In this document: one piece after another, positions 11,392 to 14,151 of the stretch | How positions within the stretch are numbered: position 1 is the stretch's first letter | Layout: every line of letters starts with the position of its first letter | Source of the DNA: a virus | IMG/VR virus record: IMGVR_UViG_3300042430_001185 | Coordinates: 1-20,924 of that record | Strand: one strand, 5' to 3' | Length of the DNA stretch: 20,924 bases | Notes under the pieces: model-generated | Seen by the model: only the letters and a program-made list of their open reading frames with translations | The model's database searches: none | What the model was told of the DNA's origin: nothing | Program-made: the position numbers and the translations under genes

Positions 11392-11541
11392 ATGAAAACA
11401 GTAACCTACTACCTAGATAAAGCATCAAGACTTGCACGCCTGCCACAATCCAAAAACGTGCGCCGTAAAATGACAGCAAACCACAGAGCAATGGGTGATG
11501 CGAGACAGCGTTATTTGGCGGCAGCCATGAGTGAGCGATAA
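11392..11541 (+). CDS. Small basic protein of unknown function, 49 aa
   Basis: Short reading frame starting MKTVTYYLDKASRLARL and ending AAAMSER. It is rich in Arg/Lys and Ala, probably helical, and could bind nucleic acid, but no family is recognised. Support: the ATG is preceded by GGCACAACACAGC, the A/C-rich leader found before many right-arm genes, and the next gene follows after another such leader. An in-frame upstream ATG at 11368 (MNTAAQHS extension) is possible; 11392 is preferred because it directly follows the A/C-rich stretch. First supported gene of the early operon. Confidence 0.6.
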   Translation: MKTVTYYLDKASRLARLPQSKNVRRKMTANHRAMGDARQRYLAAAMSER

Positions 11542-11542
11542 T

Positions 11543-11575
11543 CACAACACAACACAACACAACTACAACTTGAAC
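11543..11575 (+). promoter_or_regulatory. A/C-rich translation leader (type example)
   Basis: The 33 bases before the ATG at 11576 consist of CACAACACAACACAACAC-type repeats ending in TTGAAC, with almost no G and no Shine-Dalgarno. Equivalent leaders precede the starts at 11392, 12272, 12837, 13565, 14509, 19506, 19679, 20019 and 20704. An unstructured, G-poor leader can support initiation without Shine-Dalgarno pairing. Confidence 0.6.
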
Positions 11576-12199
11576 ATGAACACACAGCAATTCCAAAAAC
11601 TTATTCGTTCCGTAACTGGACGACCGCTCACTATTGAGACCGAATCTGAAGAAATAGAGCTTGAAACTAAGATTGTAATTTCTAGACCATGGAAAAATGG
11701 GAAAAATGCTTTTTCTTTCGAGTGGAAAACACCGAAAAAAGAAGATTCTTTACTTCGTAGCTTTATAACCGCTTTTTGCGCTAAGTATCGCGAACCAGAC
11801 CCCGCAACCTATTCCCGCAACTGCTCCGCCTATGGCGACAGGTGGGTAGGGCATGAAGAAGAATGGAATAATCCTGAGACTCACTGGAACTGCTCGCTGT
11901 GGAATCACCACGCAGGACACATGACCACTAAGGACAAATTGAAAGCGCAAGTCATCGCCAACTTTGCAAGCTTTGATGCGGGAACTGCTCGCCTTGGTTT
12001 TTATGATACGCACTATGGCATTGGGATATTTACAATTTACGGGGGTGATTGGGTGCAAAAAAGCCTTTCCGCAATGTCCGACTATCTGGCAAGCAAGGCA
12101 ATCCCATACCGCAATGAACTCTCCGATGCTGGTTGGGTTACTCGCTTCGTTATAAATATTGACAAGACCGCTCACGCATCCTTGTTGCGCTCGTTTTAA
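11576..12199 (+). CDS. Hypothetical early protein, 207 aa
   Basis: Unrecognised soluble protein beginning MNTQQFQKLIRSVTGRPLTI. It has a Trp/His/Asn-rich centre (NCSAYGDRWVGHEEEWNN, then HWNCSLWNHHAGH; about residues 82-118) that could bind metal or ligand, and a C-terminal part with LGFYDTHYGIGIFTIYGG. A GTG at 11531 would add 15 residues encoded by the A/C-rich leader (DNHNTTQHNYNLN); the ATG at 11576 is preferred since that extension is simply the leader translated. Stop TAA (12197-12199) is immediately followed by stem I of the first hammerhead ribozyme, so the mRNA would be cut 45 bases after the stop codon. Confidence 0.7.
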   Translation: MNTQQFQKLIRSVTGRPLTIETESEEIELETKIVISRPWKNGKNAFSFEWKTPKKEDSLLRSFITAFCAKYREPDPATYSRNCSAYGDRWVGHEEEWNNPETHWNCSLWNHHAGHMTTKDKLKAQVIANFASFDAGTARLGFYDTHYGIGIFTIYGGDWVQKSLSAMSDYLASKAIPYRNELSDAGWVTRFVINIDKTAHASLLRSF

Positions 12200-12258
12200 G
12201 CCGCTGATGAGTCCTTGGCACAGGACGAAACGCCGCAAGGCGTCTGGCATAGCCAACG
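12200..12258 (+). ncRNA. Hammerhead ribozyme 1 (type I) with 3' hairpin
   Basis: All conserved parts are present in order: stem I 5' strand GCCG (12200-12203), CTGATGA (12204-12210), stem II GTCC/GGAC (12211-12214 with 12223-12226) closed by 8-base loop TTGGCACA, GAAA (12227-12230), stem III CGCC/GGCG (12231-12234 with 12239-12242) closed by a GCAA tetraloop, then the GTC cleavage triplet (12242-12244), then stem I 3' strand TGGC (12245-12248). The last A of GAAA pairs with T12243. Stems II and III are closed and stem I is open, which defines type I. Predicted cut is after C12244. Downstream, TGGC-ATA-GCCA (12245-12255) can form its own hairpin. It begins at the base after the TAA of the 207-aa gene; the 3' product gives the 161-aa gene a 27-base leader. 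Confidence 0.93.
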
Positions 12259-12271
12259 TAACAACTACAAC

Positions 12272-12757
12272 ATGAACATGACAACACAACACGACAACAC
12301 GACACAAGCCGCCCTTGCCATCATAGCAGCAAGCCCCGCAACATCCGCATGGAAGCGCGGGGTTAAAGCATATGCGCTCGAAATGGTTGAGGAGCTAGCC
12401 GACCAGCTGGACGCGACATATAGCCCCGAAAAACTGTTAAACGGTGCTAGGAATTGGAGCGAGTATTCTTGCGGAGGCAACGCGCTGATTTACAATTCCG
12501 ACATTGCAGAGAGACTCTGCAGCCCATCCGAGCTGAAGCGCACCAAGAACGGCGACAACCAGCCGAGCAAAACCGAGACATGGATGGACGTGCAAACGCG
12601 CGCCCTACGCCAAGCCGCTCGTTTGATTGATTCCGCTTACAGACGCGCCGAGAGACCAGCACTAGCCACAGAACGCCCAGGTGACCATGCCGCAGCACTC
12701 GCGGAGGAATGGGGCTGCAGTTATTCAGATGCACTAGTGTATTGCAACTGCGATTGA
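12272..12757 (+). CDS. Conserved hypothetical phage protein, 161 aa
   Basis: Soluble protein starting MNMTTQHDNTTQAAL. The stretch AWKRGVKAYALEMVEEL (about residues 26-42), then SEYSCGGNALIYNSDIAERL and ETWMDVQTRALRQAARLI, resembles a family of uncharacterised proteins seen in gut bacteria and their phages (my recollection, not searched). No catalytic motif is known. ATG 12272 or the second ATG at 12278 both follow AACTACAAC. The frame is open back through the hammerhead to the in-frame TAA at 12197, so the 207-aa and 161-aa frames are separated by a single in-frame stop. After ribozyme cleavage it would be the first gene on its message. Confidence 0.72.
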   Translation: MNMTTQHDNTTQAALAIIAASPATSAWKRGVKAYALEMVEELADQLDATYSPEKLLNGARNWSEYSCGGNALIYNSDIAERLCSPSELKRTKNGDNQPSKTETWMDVQTRALRQAARLIDSAYRRAERPALATERPGDHAAALAEEWGCSYSDALVYCNCD

Positions 12758-13564: not shown

Positions 13565-13846
13565 ATGCAAACAGTAACAGGCAATACATACCCCGTAAAA
13601 GACGCCATAAAGGCACTAGGCGGAAAATGGAATAAAACAGCCAAGGGTTGGGATGTCCCAGACGAGGTAGCAGACGAGGCGCGTGCCTTAGTCTCTGGAG
13701 CGTCAACTGCCGCACGCCGCACAGTTAGCACTGGCTATGTCTCCAATGTCTATCGCTTTTCTAGCGGGGCGGAAATATACCAAAACAAGCGCGGTCGATG
13801 TGAGGACGCGCCATGCTGCGGATGCTGCGGAACAGATAGCCACTGA
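13565..13846 (+). CDS. DUF5710-like small protein with Cys-rich tail, 93 aa
   Basis: Residues 1-42 (TGNTYPVKDAIKALGGKW, then KGWDVPDEVADEARALV) match the compact pattern in which a segment 'becomes' or is converted from Y.VK...K.LGG.W....K.W.VP, seen in DUF5710-like modules that accompany phage and plasmid DNA-processing proteins. The C-terminus is Cys-rich (RCEDAPCCGCCG, about residues 78-89) and may bind a metal. Function unknown. Its TGA stop (13844-13846) is part of the CTGATGA core of the second hammerhead ribozyme, so coding sequence for the last residues (TDSH) also forms stem I. Confidence 0.72.
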   Translation: MQTVTGNTYPVKDAIKALGGKWNKTAKGWDVPDEVADEARALVSGASTAARRTVSTGYVSNVYRFSSGAEIYQNKRGRCEDAPCCGCCGTDSH

Positions 13847-13897
13847 TGAGTCCCAGGCAACGGATGAAACACCCTACGGGGTGTATGGCAAATGCCA
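13839..13897 (+). ncRNA. Hammerhead ribozyme 2 (type I) with 3' hairpin
   Basis: Stem I 5' strand GCCA (13839-13842), CTGATGA (13843-13849), stem II GTCC/GGAT (13850-13853 with 13862-13865, one G-T pair) closed by 8-base loop CAGGCAAC, GAAA (13866-13869), stem III CACCC/GGGTG (13870-13874 with 13879-13883) closed by TACG (a UNCG-type loop on a C-G pair), cleavage triplet GTA (13883-13885), stem I 3' strand TGGC (13886-13889). A13869 pairs with T13884. Predicted cut is after A13885. Downstream TGGC-AAAT-GCCA (13886-13897) can form a hairpin, as in ribozyme 1. Compared with ribozyme 1, changes in each stem keep pairing. Overlaps the end of the 93-aa gene. Confidence 0.93.
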
Positions 13898-13908
13898 ACT
13901 CAAAATAT

Positions 13909-14151
13909 ATGATACTATACCAAAAAACAGAAGATCCCCTCGTAATTGTCACAGACAGCAAAACAAAAGACGTGCAGACTAAAAAGCTAACTGGCATTTA
14001 TTTTCGGATCATTCCTCCCGCAAATGACCGTGTGAATTGGGTGTTGACCTGCTCTGAAATGCACGTTGACAGATGGGCAAGCGCAACAGATTCCACTATG
14101 ATTATCTCCGAGAATCTAAGAAAACAACTTGTCTCACTATTCTCATGCTGA
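13909..14151 (+). CDS. Hypothetical protein, 80 aa (possible 101-aa form starting in the ribozyme)
   Basis: Starts MILYQKTEDPLVIVTDS and ends LVSLFSC; soluble, mixed alpha/beta, no family recognised. The frame stays open upstream to ATG 13846, which overlaps the TGA of the 93-aa gene (TGATG) and lies inside the hammerhead core; that start would add 21 residues (MSPRQRMKHPTGC...). A third in-frame ATG at 13885-13887 is split by the predicted ribozyme cut between 13885 and 13886. On cleaved RNA only 13909 remains, with a 23-base leader, so I choose it. The end overlaps the next start by 7 bases. Confidence 0.6.
   Translation: MILYQKTEDPLVIVTDSKTKDVQTKKLTGIYFRIIPPANDRVNWVLTCSEMHVDRWASATDSTMIISENLRKQLVSLFSC

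Follow-up and report, generated by a model that had tools for sequence, protein, structure and literature searches.

Two type I hammerhead ribozymes between phage genes, followed by a GCC strand predicted to pair with loop II and, after cleavage, with the freed stem I strand

The DNA analysed here (the window) is the whole of a 20,924-nt stretch, positions 1 to 20,924 of virus record IMGVR_UViG_3300042430_001185. It contains two type I hammerheads on the + strand, and all coordinates given below for its hammerheads and the ORFs next to them are on that strand. Hammerhead 1 begins with the stem I 5' strand GCCG at 12200-12203, which adjoins the stop codon of ORF 11573-12199. The core (CTGATGA, stem II, loop II, GAAA, the stem III hairpin and UC) occupies 12204-12244, with the predicted cut after 12244. 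The 3' product would begin with the stem I 3' strand TGGC (12245-12248, nt 1-4 of the product), followed by the linker ATA (12249-12251), GCCA (12252-12255) and AC. The loop II strand TTGGC (12215-12219) is the candidate pseudoknot partner of GCCAA at 12252-12256 through 4-5 bp, although T12215 could close stem II instead; alternatively, the GCCA within this strand could serve as a recapture strand for the TGGC at 12245-12248. The mRNA of the downstream ORF (12272-12757) would start at 12245, and its start codon is inferred to be ATG 12272 or 12278, giving a leader of 27 or 33 nt.

Hammerhead 2 has the stem I 5' strand GCCA at 13839-13842 and a core of CTGATGA, stem II (GTCC/GGAT), GAAA, stem III and UA at 13843-13885, with the predicted cut after 13885. 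The stem I 3' strand, again TGGC and again nt 1-4 of the 3' product, lies at 13886-13889 and is separated by AAAT from GCCA at 13894-13897, which is also followed by AC. Here the loop II strand GGCA (13856-13859) would pair with TGCC at 13893-13896, so that TGCCA (13893-13897) combines a pseudoknot 3' strand (TGCC) with a recapture strand (GCCA). The downstream ORF (13909-14151) starts at ATG 13909 after a 23-nt leader. The stop codon of ORF 13565-13846 was observed inside the CTGATGA core of this hammerhead (within window 13839-13869), and translation of the upstream gene could therefore run into the ribozyme.

Direct parsing found the CUGANGA and GAAA core and a U-H before the cut in both copies, with stems II and III capped by hairpin loops and stem I open to both flanks. 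Rfam model RF00008, which describes type III hammerheads, matched hammerhead 1 at a sub-threshold 27.3 bits (gathering score 48.5) and did not match hammerhead 2 in a search of the window; no hit to the type I hammerhead model was listed for the window at E values up to 1. By core and stem layout, both elements are type I hammerheads, and self-cleavage is predicted for both.

Other genes of the window code for proteins resembling PAPS reductase and exonuclease VIII. Directly downstream of the PAPS-reductase-like ORF is a match to the Rfam abiF RNA (RF03085; 18972-19008, - strand; 43.2 bits compared to a gathering score of 37). A homologue of ORF 11573-12199 in another phage locus, L125, has a hammerhead directly upstream (L125:3538-3612), and window positions 11540-11575 hold a CAACTACAACTTGAA leader that resembles the L125 leader and has no hammerhead core. 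It appears that such a leader can persist through gain or loss of its ribozyme. No DNA-level relatives of the window were found among 50,697 phage records.

A sequence-only reading of this DNA had pointed out that the 3' products begin TGGC-ATA-GCCAAC (12245) and TGGC-AAAT-GCCAAC (13886), and had proposed that TGGC either pairs upstream in stem I or folds back onto the downstream GCCA as a conserved hairpin. The letters, coordinates, differing loops, identical arms and trailing AAC were all confirmed. The 5' ends of the products fold at -3.7 and -5.0 kcal/mol for hammerheads 1 and 2, with z-scores of -0.53 and -2.19. Judged by folding alone, the hairpin does not stand out; the comparative data do make it stand out. 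Nested energies for hairpin and stem I are within about 1 kcal/mol of each other (-3.9 vs -3.4 for hammerhead 1 and -5.0 vs -4.0 for hammerhead 2), and the loop II-tail duplex is worth about -6.5 kcal/mol in both copies. On these values stem I plus the pseudoknot should win before cleavage, and the balance after cleavage should be close. The energy table had 44 rows; the L085 row contained an invalid hairpin energy, and the column mean was not used.

Relatives were collected by pattern and protein searches of IMG/VR, together with stretches of the records behind those loci, yielding 294 distinct type I hammerheads; sequence beyond stem I was never a selection criterion. The window family was defined by xGGC (x = T or C) as the stem I 3' strand, a stem I of at most 5 bp, and GGC in loop II. 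It comprised 41 copies at 23 loci, counting the two in the window (L001 and L003). The stem I 3' strand was TGGC in 39/41 copies and CGGC in 2/41, and xGGC followed by 3 or 4 nt and GCC was present in 41/41 (linker of 3 nt in 14 copies and 4 nt in 27), so the extension that the earlier reading had suggested seeking in related phages is general within this family. Eleven of the 41 copies had cores outside the search pattern (CTGACGA, CTGAAGA), and all 11 had the xGGC-GCC arrangement. The first ATG was 20-49 nt after the cut. Stem II came in 11 different 5-mers and the stem III hairpin in 19 versions among the 41 copies, showing that stem I and the downstream GCC are far more constant than the other stems. 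However, hairpin-free phage families also have a constant stem I (for example, TTAACC in L111 and CGGGT in L064); constancy alone proves nothing.

In a host search of genome contigs, the GCCA...TGGC pattern was found in 36 stretches, none of which parsed as a type I hammerhead; two of these (L189 and L196) are one conserved sequence without ribozyme parts. The hammerhead core pattern was found in 0/5, 0/398 and 0/398 bacterial genomes, so that these searches supplied neither a host nor a separate bacterial set for testing. Among phage records, L131 (11649-13185), L114, G832 and G842 each had 4 to about 11 hammerhead cores, many of them shortly before start codons. At L041:4219 (record G823:C1:21601-21678), two type I hammerheads lie back to back, with a few nt separating the first one's stem I from the start of the second core.

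The presence of the downstream GCC followed loop II. Among 201 distinct type I hammerheads, a tail GCC was found in 64/70 with GGC in loop II compared to 5/131 without it (Fisher p of about 5e-39, a value overstated by the relatedness of the sequences). When stem I lacked GGC, the tail GCC was still present in 12/15 hammerheads with loop II GGC compared to 5/123 without. Relatives lacking the downstream GCCA, which the earlier reading had named as evidence against its hairpin, were found where stem I had GGC and loop II did not (tail GCC in 0/8). Six hammerheads with GGC in the loop lacked the tail GCC; among them, L164:3394 has an AGCTA tail that pairs with its TGGCT loop through a wobble, and in L145 the GCC lies farther out, beyond a longer stem I. 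The GCC was 7-8 nt from the cut in 62/65 copies, for stems I of 3, 4 or 5 bp alike, and a strand that bridges to loop II at a fixed distance would require just such a constant offset.

Compensatory changes pointed in the same direction. L159 has loop II TGGCT, tail AGCCA and stem I AGGC. In L164:3992, loop II is GGTT and the tail is AACTA while stem I is still GGC; pairing of the tail thus tracks loop II, at the cost of the hairpin. GGCA loops of the xGGG family occur with TGC tails, and its GGCG loops with CGC or the wobble TGC. The loop-tail pairs in that family were A-T in 6, A-C in 0, G-C in 19 and G-T in 9 (p 0.004), with 8 other combinations (A-A 6, G-A 1, C-A 1). No compensatory loop II-tail change was seen within the TGGC family itself. 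The pseudoknot of most TGGC copies has no more than 3 or 4 bp, and its flanks do not covary; the loop 3' flank and the tail formed 23 A-T and 17 A-A combinations among 65 copies. The two window copies have TTGGC/GCCAA (hammerhead 1) and GGCA/TGCC (hammerhead 2). A search for the reversed pseudoknot, with GCC in loop II, returned 10 stretches, mostly with the same GGCC-containing loops and no clear family. For loops II without GGC, neither loop II-tail nor hairpin complementarity was clear within 9 nt.

The fourth hairpin pair was T-A in 40 copies and showed no covariation. Copies with CGGC (L134, L139) or AGGC (L159) keep GCCA, and the A after GCC was kept in 6/7 copies with a 3-bp, GGC-first stem I, where it can have no partner. 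A role for the GCCA simply as a hairpin arm was rejected as the main cause, since tail GCC tracks loop II GGC and not stem I. The sequence-only reading is partly upheld: the re-pairing it proposed can occur, but it missed loop II, whose GGC explains the GCC first. These comparisons indicate that pairing with loop II, as the 3' strand of a pseudoknot, is the primary role of the downstream GCC; this pseudoknot most likely helps hold the active shape. In two - strand copies (L075:1085 and L075:1568), the pseudoknot strand (AGCC or AGCT) is followed by a GGCT immediately ahead of a GGAG-like ribosome site, and could pair with that GGCT rather than with stem I.

Pseudoknots of this kind are known. 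In the work of Perreault et al. (2011, PMC3088659), numerous hammerheads of all three types, about 40% of all, are described as able to form a pseudoknot that stabilises stems I and II, and several pseudoknotted hammerheads sit between phage genes. In a type II ribozyme, shortening the pseudoknot lowered the rate 20- to more than 100-fold, mutation of the pseudoknot had a similar effect, and compensation restored activity (PMC3088659). The pseudoknotted type I hammerheads described there share the core, the open stem I and the loop II-tail pairing with those in the window; a downstream third strand that recaptures the stem I product strand is absent from the description as far as it was available (PMC3088659).

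Such third strands were found after other type I hammerheads. In the GTGGG family (L030, L063, L176, L181, L183, L184), the sequence of the stem I 5' strand occurs again as CCCAC, 7-14 nt after the pseudoknot GCC, so that pseudoknot and recapture strands are separate there; two L182 copies of this family are without the CCCAC strand. The window family would use a single GCC for both pairings, so that pseudoknot and hairpin are not separable there. Matching stem I and third strands also included TTAGAC-GTCTA (L065), TTATAC-GTATA (L336), TTGAAC-GTTCAA (L101), GTGGG-CCCAC (L030, L063), GCGGA-TCCGC (L296) and GCGGT-ACCGC (L339). Counted in overlapping bins covering 3-28 nt downstream, reverse-complement 4-mers occurred 13.1, 10.4, 8.6 and 9.6 times per 1000 positions, compared to 2.0-4.8 per 1000 beyond 28 nt downstream and 3.2-4.4 upstream; direct and reversed 4-mer controls gave 1.6-5.6 per 1000. 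Upstream complementary competitors were not in excess in these counts.

Dinucleotide shuffles were uninformative, as the GC and CC steps survive them in a tail of 10 nt: at tail lengths of 10 and 20 nt not one group reached significance, and at 40 nt 2/71 did. They were replaced by swaps in which 46 stem I groups exchanged tails inside GC strata. In the tail swaps, 4-mer matches were observed at 0.377 compared to 0.198 expected for all groups (0/5000), at 0.357 compared to 0.203 without the TGGC, CGGC, GTGG and GCGG groups (1/5000), at 0.357 compared to 0.201 for loops II without GGC (0/5000), and at 0.404 compared to 0.233 for loci from one IMG/VR search only (1/5000). With 5-mers the excess was weaker (0.088 vs 0.036, 6/5000), with corresponding counts of 53/5000 without the four groups, 136/5000 for loops II without GGC and 13/5000 for the single-search loci. 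Extension from a 2-nt anchor to the next two pairs gave 146 compared to 94.5 (sd 6.2, 0/3000) for loops of 3-24 nt and 21 compared to 21.0 for loops of 25-34 nt; for loops II without GGC, the signal appeared only with the wider 3-24 nt range. In the product, the stem I strand was paired with a mean probability of 0.420 compared to 0.326 (sd 0.023, 0/3000).

The same loci supplied 35 type III hammerheads as a control; in these stem III is the open stem, and its 3' strand was assessed. A third strand was present in 1/35 of these compared to 79/254 type I hammerheads (p 2e-4), and 35/35 type III products start with a closed stem I hairpin, which is 5-8 bp long. Three hammerheads with a second core within 45 nt had been dropped before the swap, extension and type I/III counts. 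Outside the TGGC, CGGC and GTGG groups, a third strand was found in 76/211 copies compared to 29/211 at a control distance; being present in only about one third of these copies, recapture is optional. In a semi-independent set of 13 new hammerheads from the virus records behind the loci, 9/13 had a third strand of at least 4 nt, several of these being weak AT-rich matches in a set too small for replication. Many AT-rich 4-mers near start codons (for example, in L011) are probably chance. The recapture tests are partly post hoc, the idea having arisen after some of the sequences had been read, and they use overlapping data from related phages. At the level of sequence, a strand complementary to the stem I product strand is in excess 3-28 nt downstream across type I families, and downstream only. 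The capacity for downstream re-pairing of TGGC that had been proposed from the window alone is conserved in relatives and, in a general form, extends to unrelated phage type I hammerheads. A partial literature search found no description of a recapture strand after hammerheads.

These results allow more than one scenario. The GCC could be kept for loop II only, with the TGGC/GCCA hairpin an unselected by-product of the GGC in stem I. The dependence of the tail GCC on loop II rather than stem I suggests this, as do the loss of the fourth hairpin pair when stem I changes, the survival of the pseudoknot without the hairpin in L164:3992, and the known occurrence of pseudoknots in all three hammerhead types (PMC3088659). 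However, the recapture excess is also found where loop II has no GGC (the 0/5000 swap result above), and the CCCAC strand of the GTGGG family is apart from the pseudoknot GCC. We regard this by-product scenario as possible but doubtful. Short GC matches arising by chance or composition in a constrained leader would agree with the weak single-sequence folding z-scores and with the dinucleotide shuffles, but such matches would hardly be expected in 41/41 copies of the window family, nor would they account for the decay with distance or for the upstream, direct, reversed and type III controls; chance is a highly improbable explanation.

Alternatively, the hairpin could form before cleavage and turn the ribozyme down, perhaps through a ligand, a protein or translation. 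In a nested energy model the hairpin was below stem I in the precursor for 27/44 copies, including both in the window, and unconstrained folds of the two window ribozymes lacked stem I. That model, however, ignores core contacts and the pseudoknot (about -6.5 kcal/mol in both window copies). No conserved ligand-binding domain was seen, and upstream competitors are not in excess. Furthermore, the GCCA strand is transcribed last, and in the work of Mahen (2010, PMC2817708), downstream competitors hardly inhibited co-transcriptional folding while upstream ones did. An inhibitory switch is thus quite unlikely.

The best reading, and one we hold to be probable, is that stem I and the pseudoknot form before cleavage and a fold-back hairpin forms after it. 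It is based on sequence, conservation, loop II-tail covariation and the finding that recapture strands are generally in excess behind hammerheads of type I, from which we infer cleavage, folding order, release and any effect on mRNA life. The element would be the 3' flank of a type I hammerhead between phage genes, where the transcript would be cut some 20-50 nt ahead of the start codon that follows. In the uncut RNA, TGGC would pair with the upstream GCCG or GCCA as stem I, and the downstream GCC with the loop II GGC; this pseudoknot would join stems I and II and allow fast cleavage. After cleavage, stem I would be a mere 4-bp helix between two RNAs. Pairing of the downstream GCC(A) with the freed TGGC could then disrupt stem I as well as the pseudoknot, so that the upstream RNA would be released and the downstream mRNA would keep its 5'-OH end within a small hairpin.

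More tentatively, and with somewhat less confidence than doubt, we suggest that phage type I hammerheads commonly carry a strand-displacement device and that every hammerhead-made mRNA may begin in a hairpin. The device would consist of a further downstream strand, a third one, with the sequence of the stem I 5' strand; once the RNA is cut, it would recapture the freed strand, ejecting the upstream RNA, blocking re-ligation and leaving an mRNA that starts in a stem-loop. The window family may be a compressed form, in which one GCC is first the pseudoknot strand and then the recapture strand. Type II and type III hammerheads would need no such device to end up in a hairpin, since stem I is closed in them and its hairpin starts the 3' product; for type II this rule rests on topology. 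Work by Emory in 1992 and by Bouvet and Belasco in 1992 reportedly found that 5'-terminal stem-loops stabilise ordinary E. coli mRNAs. A paired mRNA 5' end would be common to both cases; those ends belong to ordinary mRNA, whereas here the 5'-OH would be ribozyme-made.

In the experiments of Mahen (2010, PMC2817708), upstream complementary inserts blocked a ribozyme co-transcriptionally, downstream inserts hardly did, and adjacent helices exchanged fast in vivo. An excess of downstream but not upstream competitors in our data fits this folding-order finding. The likeness is to the hairpin ribozyme constructs with 3' alternative helices, in which a downstream strand competes for a helix and folding order decides; as far as described, those constructs differ in having engineered inserts of 10-12 bp, another ribozyme, measured folding and no link to product release (PMC2817708). 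Self-cleavage of glmS likewise leaves a 5'-OH on the downstream mRNA, and that product is rapidly degraded by RNase J1 (PMC3997798). Since RNase J1 can attack a 5'-OH product there, a paired end could matter, and the paired 5' end here could have the opposite outcome to that of glmS.

The pseudoknot class was known already; the recapture strand after hammerheads is proposed here, with the caution that conserved downstream arms may be a pseudoknot strand too and not a hairpin alone. The model also offers a possible way for the products to come apart after the cut when a pseudoknot is holding together a stem I of just 4 bp. If the products regularly fold into a 5'-terminal hairpin, a defined and protected mRNA start would be a plausible purpose for these ribozymes.
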